In this document: positions 32,898 to 39,038 of the stretch, piece by piece
How positions within the stretch are numbered: position 1 is the stretch's first letter
How the letters are laid out: every line of letters starts with the position of its first letter
Assembly (NCBI RefSeq): GCF_024347615.1
Contig: NZ_AP025508.1
Span: 1,116,001 to 1,180,000, forward strand
Source of the DNA: Vibrio splendidus
GTDB lineage: Bacteria; Pseudomonadota; Gammaproteobacteria; Enterobacterales; Vibrionaceae
DNA length: 64,000 nucleotides
Direction of reading: 5' to 3'
Made by a program: the position numbers and the translations under genes
Notes under the pieces: generated by a model
What the model was told of the DNA's origin: nothing
Database searches by the model: none
The model's input: only the letters and a program-made list of their open reading frames with translations

Positions 32898-34219
32898 CTT
32901 GCGAATCCCCTCATAATCAGGCATAAAAACAATGAGGTAGACGCGCATCGCCGTCTTTGATCTAATGAATATCGCTGAACACACATTTCGAACAAGTGGG
33001 TTAACAATGCGCGACATTCAGATTCTACAACAAACCATACAAAACCAATGCCCCTCCATTCACAAAAAACGCGTTAGTTCTCTGATACTTGCTACAAAAA
33101 GTGTACTTGACGGCTCAGACTTAACGCTGACTAAACTAGGTCGCAAACTGGAAACTAATACCACGGTAAAACATGCGATTAAACGCGTTGATAGACTGCT
33201 TGGAAATCGCCAACTACATCGTGAAAAAGACCTAATTTATAAATGGCATGCCTACTTAATAACGGGCGTCAACTCATGCCCTGTGATCCTTGTGGATTGG
33301 TCTGATGTTCGTGAACAACTTCGTTATATGACGTTAAGAGCATCCGTTGCACTTGATGGTCGAGCCATCACTATCTTTGAACAAGTTTTTGAGTATGGCC
33401 AATATAATTCACCGAAAAGTCACCAAACATTCCTCGATAAATTGCAGAGTATTTTACCCAGTAAAACCAGTCCAATCATCGTTTCTGATGCGGGTTTTCG
33501 AAATACTTGGTTCCGACAAGTTCAAGAGAAAGGCTGGTTTTGGTTAGGTCGTGTCCGAGGTGAAGTATCAATCAAACAACCTCATAAACCTTGGGTCTCA
33601 AATAAAACCTTTTATCCAACCGCTGTCCATAAACCCAAATATCTTGGCCACTGCTTACTAGCAAAGAGATCACCGATATCTTGTGAAGCCTATGTTTATA
33701 AGGGATTAGAAAAAGGCCGAAAAGCCCAGCGCCATAGTAGAACCAGCCAAAAACACTCCGCTACACATCTCTACCAGCGCAGTGCGAAGGAGCCGTGGCT
33801 ACTCGCGACGAATGTCCCTAGACATATCTTAAATGAAGTACAAATTACCAATCTGTACGCCAAGCGTATGCAGATAGAACAGGCATTCCGCGATCTAAAG
33901 AGTAGCGCCTATGGGATCGCACTTCGTCACAACAGAACTCGCTGTACTAAGCGATTAGATATCCTGCTTCTTATTGCGTTGCTCGCTGAAATCTTGATGT
34001 GGTGGAATGGCCTAATTGCAGTACAGGCCAAATGGCATTTTGACTTCCAAGCCAACAGCATTAAACACCGCCGAGTTCTATCTATACCTCGTCTAGGGAG
34101 AGAGGTACGAAATCATCGGCGATATCAAATTAATGAATCCCAATATCAATGGGGAATGTTCGAATATCAAAGGCTCACACACAACGCAGGACTAGGGAAA
34201 TTATGAGGGGATCCGTCAG
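32898..34219 (+). mobile_element. IS10-like insertion sequence (IS4 family), 1322 bp
   Basis: The ends are 20-bp imperfect inverted repeats: left CTTGCGAATCCCCTCATAAT, right (reverse complement) CTGACGGATCCCCTCATAAT, 17 of 20 identical and very close to the IS10 ends. The flanks are exact 9-bp duplications. The length compares with 1329 bp for IS10. As in IS10, one GATC (Dam) site lies about 62 bp from the left end where the transposase promoter should be, and another lies in the right terminal repeat but not the left. Confidence 0.95.
33007..34206 (+). CDS. IS10-like transposase
   Basis: 399 residues, compared with 402 in IS10, and recognisably homologous throughout from MRDIQILQQ to the end AGLGKL. 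The catalytic residues are D97 (VILVDWSD), D161 (IIVSDAGF) and E291, the last within YAKRMQIEQAFRDLK, an exact Y-x2-R-x3-E-x6-K IS4-family signature. The start at 33007 matches the IS10 protein; an ATG at 32965 would add 14 residues. The gene appears intact, so the element may be active. Confidence 0.95.
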   Translation: MRDIQILQQTIQNQCPSIHKKRVSSLILATKSVLDGSDLTLTKLGRKLETNTTVKHAIKRVDRLLGNRQLHREKDLIYKWHAYLITGVNSCPVILVDWSDVREQLRYMTLRASVALDGRAITIFEQVFEYGQYNSPKSHQTFLDKLQSILPSKTSPIIVSDAGFRNTWFRQVQEKGWFWLGRVRGEVSIKQPHKPWVSNKTFYPTAVHKPKYLGHCLLAKRSPISCEAYVYKGLEKGRKAQRHSRTSQKHSATHLYQRSAKEPWLLATNVPRHILNEVQITNLYAKRMQIEQAFRDLKSSAYGIALRHNRTRCTKRLDILLLIALLAEILMWWNGLIAVQAKWHFDFQANSIKHRRVLSIPRLGREVRNHRRYQINESQYQWGMFEYQRLTHNAGLGKL

Positions 34220-34228: not shown

Positions 34229-35223
34229 TTGCCGCCGTAATCATGTCTTTCAGTTCAGCAAGTTTTGCTTTTAGCTTGCAACAATCTGCCAATGAAAACA
34301 GTGAAGATCTCGTATGGACAGGGCACCTAAGCCCAGACAGCGACACGGTAATGTCTGCGATGCTCGCGGCTCATATCTATGGCGGTACAGCGACAGTACC
34401 AGAGCCTATCAATCCAGAATCCACCTTCATCTTGAACTACTGTAATGCTGAATCACCACGCGTAGAGACAGATTACTCTTCATATCGAGTGGGGCTGGTG
34501 GACTTCAACCAAGTCACTCAGCTAGCGCCAACCATTGACCAAGCATCCATTGTGGCAGTGGTCGATCATCACGCCATTGGTGGCTCTCCAATTAACACAC
34601 CACAAATCGTCGAGATGGATATTCGAGGCTGGGGATCGGCAGCGACAATTTTGGCTGATAACGCTGAAAAGCTGGATGTGACACTACCTAAGCACCTTGC
34701 TTGTGTAGGCTTAGGCGCAATTCTCTCTGATACCGTGGTATTCCAATCATCAACCACTACTGAGCATGATCGTGAGTACGCAGAGAAGCTGGCGAAGGTT
34801 GCAGGTATTTCAGATATTGAAGATTTCGGCCAACAGATGCTGATTGCTAAGTCGGATCTCAGTCACCTTTCTTCTGAAACCATTTTGACGCTGGATTACA
34901 AAAACTTTAAATACGGTGGCAAACAGGTGGGTATCGGTGTGGCTGAAACGCTAACGGCTCAACAACTGATTGACCGTAAAGACGATCTTTTAGCAGCAAT
35001 GAAGACTTACAAAGAAGAGAACGGCTTAGATCATCTTTTCTTCTCTATCACAGACACTAAGAACAAAGAAGCTAATTTATTGTGGGTGGATGAAAGCGAC
35101 TATCAAGTCATCAAATCGGCTTTCAATGCTGAACCAACAAGCGACATGCTGACGTTAGAAGGCGTCACTTCACGCAAGCGTCAGATTGGCCCTGCGGTAC
35201 AAAAAGCAATTGAGAGCTTGTAG

Positions 35224-35576
35224 AGAGTAAGAGCCGTTACTTTATAAATAAGTAGTGAAGGGATTGGTAGAGATACCAATCCCTTTTTGTTTTTGGGTGT
35301 GCTGAATTAGATTTGGATAAAATTGAGTTACGTTTTTTCTCATTTGACAAAGTTTATGGATAACCCGGATCTAACATAGCCCTTTATGATACGAATCCCA
35401 AAGGACATTCACGACCAACCACGTGAAGAGTTAGACTTAGAGCAGCCTTAAACAAGTAACCAATCCTAATCGCGGCCTTCCATTATCGGTAAGTTAGTAT
35501 TCATAGATCGAACTAATAATACAGTGTTTTATTGTTTATAGTAAATCCCAGACAGAATGACTAACAGGACAATGAA
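35224..35576. other. Intergenic region after the pyrophosphatase gene
   Basis: 353 bases. It contains a terminator at 35258; otherwise AT-rich with nothing recognised. Confidence 0.6.
35258..35290 (+). terminator. Terminator after the pyrophosphatase gene
   Basis: AAGGGATTGGTA / TACCAATCCCTT around GAGA, then TTTGTTTTT. It is repeated identically at 36978. Confidence 0.85.
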
Positions 35577-36713: not shown

Positions 36714-37014
36714 GACGATCTTTTAGCAGCAATGAAGACTTACAAAGAAGAGAACGGGCTAGACCATCTGTTCTTCTCCATCACCGACACTAAGAACAAA
36801 GAAGCAAACTTACGGTGGGTAGATGAAAGCGACTATCAAGTTATCAGACCAGCTTTCAACGCTGAACCAACAAGCGACATGCTGTCACTTCGCGCAAGCG
36901 TCAGATTGGCTCTGCGGTACAAAAAGCAATTGAGAGTTTGTAGAGAGTAAGAGCCGTTACTTTATAAATAAGTAGCGAAGGGATTGGTAGAGATACCAAT
37001 CCCTTTTTGTTTTT
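36714..37014 (+). pseudogene. Diverged, frameshifted duplicate of the pyrophosphatase 3' end plus terminator
   Basis: Aligns with 34981-35294. About 20 substitutions in 297 aligned bases, mostly silent in the first half, and a 13-base deletion that breaks the frame just before the SRKRQ substrate motif. The stop codon, downstream leader and terminator are all retained. No 5' part of the gene is present. Confidence 0.9.
36978..37014 (+). terminator. Terminator of the duplicated pyrophosphatase end
   Basis: Same stem as at 35258 (AAGGGATTGGTA / TACCAATCCCTT), followed by TTTGTTTTTTT. Confidence 0.85.
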
Positions 37015-37199
37015 TTACTAACCACGATAATGATTGATAAAGAGAATAAGTTGGCGGATCAAGACGGTTATCGATGATTGTTCGGTTATTTGATACTAAA
37101 CTGGTGACATAGTTAACAAATTAGTATTGACTGATATACCTACAATAAATGCGGAGTTATTATCCATCGATTACTCTATGTATTTCAGCAGGCTATTTC

Positions 37200-39038
37200 A
37201 TGAAATTAAATCAGGTTCTAACCCATACAAATCAAGTTGAACGCTCAAAATTCGTTAACTGTATAGACAAGTTATGTCAAGACATCAAAGATGACCCTGA
37301 TTTAGCAAAACAACTTGATAAAATTGATGGGCAGCTTAAAGCTGCGTCAGGCAATGAAATAACGCAACTGTTTAGCCTAATCCAAACCTTTTTCAAAAAG
37401 CACCTCAAAGAACAAATTGCGGTTGGTGGGCCTCAAGTCGCTTTGCTCATTAATATACTCGTAAGAGATGGTAATTGTATTGCAACCATTCCTTGGATTG
37501 AGAGTCTTTACGCAAGAGAATACAAAGAAATTAATGATTTAAGCTTAAGTCTTATCAAAGAAATTGAAGATAATGATTCAATCGATTTTGAGCGCTTGAA
37601 TCGTTTAGATATCTATCGTGAATGCATGAAGACAGCGTTTGATAATGATCTAAAATCTAACCGCACTGCAAAAATATCTGAAGATGAAAGAAGCATCTTA
37701 AATGTATTAGCTGAAAGGTTAGCGCTTTCAAGAGAAGAAATTCATGCTATTGAACATTCAGTGGATCCAATTCCAGAACTAGGGATTGAAAACTCGCTTG
37801 AGTACCTACGTGAAAATGGAATCATCCTTATCAATAGACGCCGCGCTGAGGTTATGGTTGCCGATGAGGTGATCGAATCTTTACATGATGTTCTAGGAAA
37901 GGAATTACACGATAAGTATGTACTTCGTATTTTAAGGTCTTTCTCTGACGCTGATCTATCCAACATACTTAAGAACCATGGGTATAAAATTCGAGGGGTT
38001 GAGCGACAGGATAAAATAACAACTATTGTACATTCAGGTTTATCCATCAGAAGTATTTTGATGACAGATTTGCATAGTGAAGATGCAACCCAGAACCAAC
38101 GTAAAGAGCGCATCAAGCAACTTATTGAAGATATGGATTTGGATATTTCAAGAATTGGTACAAGGCTTCAAGACCGTATCGATGTGATGATTGAATACTT
38201 AAGAGCATCAGAAGACGAAGAGTTTAATTTACTTAGTGTAAGTGGTTATAAAGAGTTGTTAGAGGCTTTGTCTCGGACTGATCTTAGTGTTGAAGATAGA
38301 ATCCGTGCTGACTTTGAGATTGAGAATAAGGAAACCTTGGACCCTGAACGCTTAAAAGCTCTCAGTATTACACCATTAGATATTCTTTATCTTTACAGTA
38401 ACGATGAAATAAAAACTATTCGAAATGATATGAACTTGCCGAGACGCGGCAATCCAAGAAGTCAGATCATTGAGAGCTTTGCTAGCGCAAATGATCGCTT
38501 AATTGAAAATTATCATCTCTTAGCTTGTCGTGACCTTCAAGGACTACAATCTGCAGGGATTGATATCAAAGAAGCAGATATCGGTGTTAAATTTGAAGAA
38601 GCAACTCGTTCAATCTTAGAGCAGCTAGGAATGAACGTAGATGAAGATTTGAGAAAAGATATCAATACAGCAAAAGACAAAGCTGACATCATTATCTCGT
38701 TGGAAAATGATGATGTTATTATTGGTGAAGCAAAGTCATTTAAGAACGGGCAATTCTCGAAATATTCTTCGACTTCTCGTCAAGTTAAGGCATACGTTAA
38801 GCGTTGTGAAGCCAACGGGCACAGAGTTGCTCAAGTATTGATTGTTGCTCCAAAGTTCTCCGAAGATTTTATCGATGCAGCTGACATGGATACAGATATC
38901 AATATTTCTTTGTTAGAAGCCGAGGGCTTGCAGAAAATATTGGCAGCATTTAAACAACGTAGAAACCCTAATTTCTCTCCTAAGCTATTAACAAAGGGAG
39001 GGTTACTTAAAGCAGATTTGATTTCTAAATCTATTTAG
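37200..39038 (+). CDS. Putative PD-(D/E)XK nuclease with two SAP-like motifs; candidate defence protein
   Basis: 612 residues, no signal or membrane segment. The C-terminal restriction-endonuclease-like domain (about 460-585) shows E466/E467 (VKFEEATRSILEQLG), D496 (DKADIIIS) and E510-x-K512 (VIIGEAKS), the spacing of a PD-(D/E)XK active site, followed by a QVKAYVKRCEANG helix and a VLIVAP strand as in Mrr-like enzymes. Two helix-extended-loop-helix stretches resemble SAP DNA-binding motifs: 248-277 (FSDADLSNILKNHGYKIRG) and 399-427 (YSNDEIKTIRNDMNLPRRG). The N-terminal 230 residues are helical and unrecognised. AGCAGGC precedes the ATG at 37200; an ATG at 37149 is less likely. Alone on its strand, no methylase or helicase beside it. 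Confidence 0.75.
   Translation: MKLNQVLTHTNQVERSKFVNCIDKLCQDIKDDPDLAKQLDKIDGQLKAASGNEITQLFSLIQTFFKKHLKEQIAVGGPQVALLINILVRDGNCIATIPWIESLYAREYKEINDLSLSLIKEIEDNDSIDFERLNRLDIYRECMKTAFDNDLKSNRTAKISEDERSILNVLAERLALSREEIHAIEHSVDPIPELGIENSLEYLRENGIILINRRRAEVMVADEVIESLHDVLGKELHDKYVLRILRSFSDADLSNILKNHGYKIRGVERQDKITTIVHSGLSIRSILMTDLHSEDATQNQRKERIKQLIEDMDLDISRIGTRLQDRIDVMIEYLRASEDEEFNLLSVSGYKELLEALSRTDLSVEDRIRADFEIENKETLDPERLKALSITPLDILYLYSNDEIKTIRNDMNLPRRGNPRSQIIESFASANDRLIENYHLLACRDLQGLQSAGIDIKEADIGVKFEEATRSILEQLGMNVDEDLRKDINTAKDKADIIISLENDDVIIGEAKSFKNGQFSKYSSTSRQVKAYVKRCEANGHRVAQVLIVAPKFSEDFIDAADMDTDINISLLEAEGLQKILAAFKQRRNPNFSPKLLTKGGLLKADLISKSI

Follow-up and report, generated by a model that had tools for sequence, protein, structure and literature searches.

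Introduction

The cleavage domain of FokI has a single active site; the DNA-binding part of the enzyme restrains it, and it cuts once it has been released and has paired with another cleavage domain. FokI and other type IIS enzymes usually come with methylases that keep the host's own DNA from being cut (both from the available text of PMC4081073). Fusions of a winged helix with an endonuclease form a further described group: for 87% of more than 1000 such fusions, the three genes before and the three genes after are reported to include no DNA methyltransferase; several of the fusion types have members that sense 6-methyladenine (6mA), and the characterized examples do so in the Dam context (excerpts of PMC11037411). 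Here we describe a nuclease gene in a 64,000-nucleotide stretch of the Vibrio splendidus genome (contig NZ_AP025508.1, positions 1,116,001 to 1,180,000; the window, whose numbering is used below unless another locus is named). The gene, its parts, the upstream element, and the repeated gene end before it lie on the forward strand; the gene occupies 37200..39038, and its 612-residue product and its relatives make up a widely spread, undescribed family of predicted single-gene nucleases of the FokI type. On balance, we lean towards the view that the protein is a one-gene defense nuclease that attacks invading DNA in FokI fashion and tells self from foreign without a methylase.

The nuclease gene and its family

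The open reading frame (ORF) is real. It runs from an ATG at 37200 to a stop codon that ends at 39038, and alignment, residue conservation, and a match in PHROGs agree with the protein of 612 residues given in an earlier, preliminary description of this DNA. The start at 37200 is favored because all 41 aligned relatives share M1-K2-L3, and a longer mechanical ORF of 629 residues starting at 37149 was rejected on the same count.

A database search found at least 347 protein clusters related to the window protein at E ≤ 0.001, a second, profile-based search again found at least 347, and a search with a diverged member as the query found at least 368; each of the three scored about 8000 candidates, and the family totals are lower bounds. 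Among the 120 matches listed, identity to the window protein is 55-92%, and nearly all cover that protein in full and have lengths of 610-634 residues. Where names are given, they are mostly "hypothetical" or "uncharacterized protein", with some members called "restriction endonuclease type IV Mrr". The hosts among the matches listed are mostly marine Gammaproteobacteria; the genera are Vibrio, Aliivibrio, Photobacterium, Pseudoalteromonas, Shewanella, Alteromonas, Idiomarina, Rheinheimera, and Marinomonas, and Kiloniella antarctica and Francisella are also named in the match lists. One PHROGs v4 family of unknown function, phrog_34709, matches the window protein over its full length (E 3.8e-229).

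Scans of the window protein against Pfam and PADLOC gave nothing better than E 0.01, and a scan of NCBIfam gave no match. The Pfam matches to Med11, DUF4423, Mu Gp27, and Nif11 all fell below the cut-off and were rejected as evidence, as were sequence matches among solved structures (E 0.12, 0.66, and 2.4) and locus L101 (24% identity over 135 residues). A search of a viral structure library gave no match at E ≤ 0.001.

A FokI-type cleavage domain with an intact active site

Residues 440-612 (38517..39035) are predicted to form a PD-(D/E)XK cleavage domain of the FokI/Nt.BspD6I type, as judged from the predicted structure and its fold comparison, in which FokI is the closest fold to the catalytic part. 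The preliminary description had placed a PD-(D/E)XK site at E466/E467, D496, and E510-x-K512, and these residues are kept in 229-231 of 231 fetched relatives, a sample picked by similarity. E466, the helix glutamate of the active site (38595..38597), is conserved in all 231 and E467 in 229; the active-site aspartate D496 (38685..38687) is conserved in 230, with one gap; and in the (D/E)xK motif E510-A511-K512 (38727..38735), E510 is conserved in all 231 and K512 in 230, again with one gap.

The model of residues 458-585 contains a helix at 458-475, a strand at 497-500, a strand at 505-511 that holds E510, a helix at 522-538, and a strand at 542-550. This predicted order of elements is that of a restriction-endonuclease core, and the fold comparison confirms it, so that the core expected at 460-585 is present in the predicted structure. 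The nuclease is of the PD-(D/E)XK type as had been claimed, with a fold that is narrower than claimed and resembles FokI/Nt.BspD6I. Some members of the family had been annotated beforehand with PF09254, the FokI cleavage domain; a fresh scan matched it in none of eight such members at E ≤ 10, in a procedure whose HMMER filters can drop weak matches. Mean column identity per 20-residue block is 0.79-0.88 in residues 461-612, versus 0.48-0.80 in residues 1-440. Judging from the fold and the intact active site, residues 440-612 would cleave DNA.

The N-terminal two thirds

The remainder of the protein contains a winged-helix-like region at residues 161-234 (37680..37901), which helix 62-87 joins in fold matches, and two SAP-like stretches at residues 244-279 (37929..38036) and 395-430 (38382..38489). 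When 21 pairs of regions were compared by profile, these two stretches gave the best match (hhalign P = 5.8e-4, with a probability of 29% across 36 in-register columns), which lends moderate support to their being a sequence repeat. The Pfam SAP profile gave no match to the window protein at E up to 1, again with filters that can drop weak matches, and "SAP-like" is for this reason a label based on pattern. The preliminary description had likewise noted two SAP-like stretches. An RDGN motif at 89-92 is nearly invariant among the 231 relatives, W99, R243, R246, R265, R269, K302, K306, and R326 are present in all of them, and R246, D250, R265, and R269 are invariant positions of the first SAP-like stretch. 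Taken together, these regions make the N-terminal two thirds the probable DNA-binding part of the protein.

Movement as a single gene and sparse distribution

Distant loci of the family have no neighbor genes in common. Homology between loci detected by blastn usually ends on the 3' side at the stop codon or within tens of bases of it, and on the 5' side it stops somewhere from the start codon to about 170 bases ahead of it; longer homology occurs only between close relatives at one site. The unshared neighbors and the limits of homology near the gene ends therefore identify the mobile unit as the gene with its own promoter, and the nuclease moves as a single gene. A conserved core-genome neighborhood, named in the preliminary description as a finding that would speak against its proposal, is not what the homologs show, as neighbors differ between distant loci.

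The family is sparse, horizontally spread, and sometimes broken. Within Vibrio, the genus of the window, 13 of 227 genomes have a match, nine intact and four broken or remnants. The class sample has a match in 3 of 369 genomes and the order sample in 7 of 394, the window's own genome being included in each count and one of the seven being a 120-residue piece. Five of 17 Francisella genomes have a match (two intact, three decayed); in Francisella adeliensis (L063, genome G414) an intact, diverged member lies between the valyl-tRNA synthetase gene and a DUF4336 gene. The gene is split into two ORFs in three of 29 genome loci (L002, L015, and L024) and is cut by the contig end in L028. Three Pseudoalteromonas replicons of 680-843 kb that are filed as plasmids carry the gene. 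In a quick protein tree with some long branches, Motilimonas falls inside the Vibrio clade, two viral copies are nested within host clades, and Colwellia and an Oceanospirillaceae metagenome-assembled genome are sisters with support 100. These placements, together with the low G+C of the gene in the window, speak for horizontal transfer.

Prophage and defense-type settings

Some copies of the gene lie among phage genes. On viral contig L030 the nuclease is encoded within a head-gene module, on the other strand, with a head maturation protease (phrog_328) on one side and a 75-residue ORF and then a tail-completion gene (phrog_26) on the other; from its gene order, this head module is presumably Mu-like. 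On viral contig L031 the nuclease comes after a baseplate gene and is followed by an esterase to which a phage family is assigned.

Other copies lie beside genes of defense type. Among 12 loci with a same-strand gene of at least 200 residues no more than 100 bases downstream, six have a defense-type gene directly behind the nuclease, 9-85 bases away and different each time: a KAP NTPase/PDC-S20 (L007), a double-HATPase protein (L009), an AAA_13/PDC-S06 (L017), an nSTAND (L019), a metallophosphoesterase (L034), and a SIR2 followed by ATP-binding, KTSC, and SLATT proteins (L035). At L009 (11864-15101) the double-HATPase gene and an overlapping, unmatched gene of 378 residues lie directly behind the nuclease and may be a defense pair of their own. 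The genes directly downstream at L008 (11888-13207, 439 residues) and L018 (11897-13045, 382 residues) gave no Pfam or PADLOC match in these scans. The Pseudoalteromonas loci L007, L008, L009, L033, and L034 share an HNH-endonuclease gene cluster, located in one stretch with the nuclease, and have differing genes downstream, several of defense type; this stretch looks like a defense hotspot with the nuclease as a recurring member. The number of PADLOC models matched at E ≤ 1e-10 was 191 for 150 neighbor proteins versus 27 for 141 control proteins, the control being ten arbitrary stretches of carrier genomes, drawn from fewer genomes than the neighbor set, and the comparison counting models, of which one protein can match dozens, rather than proteins, with no significance test. 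No single model was matched by more than three neighbor proteins.

A number of observations weigh against a role in defense, the model-based nature of this count among them. PADLOC (PADLOC-DB of 2023) has no model for the window protein itself, and strong PADLOC matches downstream are confined to L007 and L017, with weak matches at L009 and L034 and with L019 and L035 outside that scan. The remaining six of the 12 loci are unhelpful: L008 and L018 are unmatched, L022 belongs to the cluster of L018, L031 has the esterase, L063 has DUF4336, and L065 lay outside the set of loci whose downstream genes were examined. At 9 of 11 Vibrio loci the ORF that follows runs on the other strand, and no defense gene was recognized directly behind the nuclease at these Vibrio loci. 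Five scans of viral contigs, limited in reach to close relatives, found copies on three contigs (L030, L031, and a third with a partial copy at its end), and no copy was found in a phage collection; carriage by phages is rare on these counts. Conservation is lower in the putative DNA-binding half than in the cleavage domain, and the decay of copies fits a costly defense gene but any dispensable gene as well. The defense role proposed in the preliminary description gains from the prophage and defense-type settings of some copies and has its basis in context; the support for it is circumstantial, and the family would not be a categorically new system.

The locus in the window

As the preliminary description had noted, no methylase, helicase, or NTPase is adjacent to the nuclease gene among the window ORFs, read by eye. 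Its proposal that a 67-residue neighbor acts with the nuclease was rejected, as a tblastn search of 89 loci matched this neighbor in the window's own genome and in none of the other loci. The segment is accessory, as had been described, with a transposase-like ORF, a repeated gene end, and low G+C. The transposase-like ORF (32965-34206, 413 residues), of insertion sequence type by reading, ends 36 bases before a DHH/DHHA2 gene. A partial second copy of the 3' end of this gene and its terminator lies at 36714..37014 as two direct repeats, D1 (91%) and D2 (97%), of 34981-35294; the copies are 1.7 kb apart and 91-97% identical, and the downstream copy stands directly before the nuclease gene. In genome G212, the nuclease gene lies directly behind a full-length homolog of the DHH/DHHA2 gene. 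Because the 3' end is duplicated directly before the nuclease gene, this suggests that the nuclease gene came in with the DHH/DHHA2 gene end from a relative arranged like G212. The G+C content of the nuclease gene is 36.9% (30.7% at third positions), and that of the flanking genes is 46.3% (45.3%) for DHH/DHHA2 and 44.5% (49.7%) for a LysR-type gene.

Upstream of the gene, the element GTGACATAGTTAACA (37104..37118) is a presumed promoter or operator, a similar pattern standing before the gene in most Vibrio-group loci. The pattern occurs in 10 of 28 extracted upstream regions, nine of them from the Vibrio group, at 81-102 bp before the start codon (97 bases in G041); it was not found in six Vibrio-group loci (L001, L005, L021, L026, L030, and L064). 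Among 31 genomes, the exact word occurs before the nuclease gene in G000 and G041 and once in G599. A role as a genome-wide regulator site was rejected, since matches with at most one mismatch in the 31 genomes numbered 17, versus 16 for a control word.

Proposed mechanism and alternatives

The reading of the protein as a one-gene defense nuclease draws on the computed fold of the cleavage domain, its intact active site, the movement of the gene alone, and the settings of some copies; from these we infer the role in defense and the nature of the target. The N-terminal two thirds, with the winged-helix-like region and the two SAP-like stretches, would bind DNA and keep the cleavage domain inactive until the target is met, whereupon two cleavage domains, each with one PD-(D/E)XK site, would pair transiently and break the duplex. 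Autoinhibition and dimerization are proposed by analogy with FokI. The target would most likely be one fixed feature missing from host DNA: either a modified base of a kind other than the Dam mark, or an end or structure of DNA that arises as phages or plasmids replicate. A single fixed, non-host feature is suggested because the gene has no methyltransferase partner and because many charged residues of the DNA-binding half, the more variable part of the protein, are invariant in distant hosts. No methyltransferase lies next to the nuclease gene in the window or recurs among the neighbors of the family; PF00145, a family of C5 methylases, occurs in 2 of 150 neighbor proteins (from the 25 commonest of 173 families).

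Two of the alternatives, modification-dependent cleavage and the sensing of DNA ends, are variants within the defense reading, and the probabilities given here do not sum to one. As a type IV restriction enzyme, the protein would read a modified base through its winged-helix or SAP-like part and cut nearby with the FokI-type domain. This is possible, if clearly short of even: the gene stands alone, as do most winged-helix endonuclease fusions (PMC11037411, in excerpt), and the low count of PF00145 among the neighbors agrees with it, but characterized examples sense 6mA in the Dam context, and dam is above the cut-off in 12 of 14 carrier genomes, with no match in G614 and G414. A DpnI-like target, Dam-methylated GATC, which would be one form of the action on modified DNA put forward in the preliminary description, is unlikely for this reason; the mark is excluded except where either dam or the nuclease gene is silent. 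As Dam-context 6mA is to be expected in most carriers, the choice left is between a different modification and, in the manner of Shedu, the ends or structures of DNA, and we rate these two as nearly equal. A Shedu-like mode, in which DNA ends or replication intermediates relieve autoinhibition, is somewhat doubtful, as Shedu scores far below FokI in the fold comparison, amid many other PD-(D/E)XK rows. A broader claim, that the whole family is a new class of methyltransferase-independent, FokI-type innate nucleases reading one universal mark or structure of invaders that is absent from host chromosomes, we regard as rather unlikely; the key residues of the recognition half are kept across distant hosts, but its rating is slightly lowered because overall variation is greater there than in the cleavage domain.

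Outside these variants, the protein could be a sequence-specific type IIS enzyme, with protection coming from a methyltransferase gene at another location or from a solitary methyltransferase already resident in the host. FokI, itself of type IIS, is the closest fold; the Foldseek alignment with 2fok_B has 619 columns and a VIA row of 2fok_B spans residues 76-605 (root-mean-square deviations 22 and 15.8), so that an overall layout like that of FokI is conceivable; and the two C5 methylases among the 150 neighbor proteins can be counted for it. However, a linked methyltransferase is absent from the window and none recurs among the neighbors, and FokI is at chance level for the N-terminal model (1fok_A, E 3.6), which makes this the least probable of the alternatives and an improbable one in itself. 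Little more likely is a nuclease of DNA repair or recombination, or a selfish, homing-like nuclease gene, with no part in defense. The gene moves alone, and repair proteins are among those that contain SAP and winged-helix modules, but the nuclease is absent from most genomes of both sampled genera (Vibrio and Francisella) and of the order and class samples, and is for this reason not a housekeeping gene. The prophage and defense-type settings of some copies also speak against a repair or selfish role, and homing to one fixed site was rejected because the surroundings differ between distant loci.

A cleavage domain of the FokI type without a methylase means that the discrimination of self from non-self must be solved differently. 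If the protein acts in defense, it would be a compact and portable system made of one gene, which the PADLOC-DB of 2023 lacks, and its reader of a mark or structure could serve as a DNA-sensing module.

Comparison with known systems

The phrog_34709 family is the same as that of the window protein over the full length, and is itself without a described function. The likeness to FokI (PDB 1FOK, 2FOK) lies in the fold of the cleavage domain and is not established outside it; unlike FokI, the window family has no recurrent methyltransferase partner, and no restriction model of PADLOC matches the window protein. Nt.BspD6I and R.BspD6I2 (PDB 2EWF and others, 2P14) have a cleavage-domain fold like that predicted for the window protein, but the protein in 2P14 is the small subunit of a heterodimer, whereas no second subunit recurs beside the window-family gene. 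The winged-helix type IV fusions (DpnI, FcyTI, HhiV4I, and others) likewise combine a winged helix and a nuclease in one chain and usually stand alone, as described in the excerpted text of PMC11037411; in contrast, the window protein has a FokI-like nuclease and a SAP-like pair, and most of its examined carriers have dam. Shedu (SduA) is a single-gene PD-(D/E)XK defense nuclease with an N-terminal sensing part (PMC12904381), a layout like the one proposed here for the window protein.
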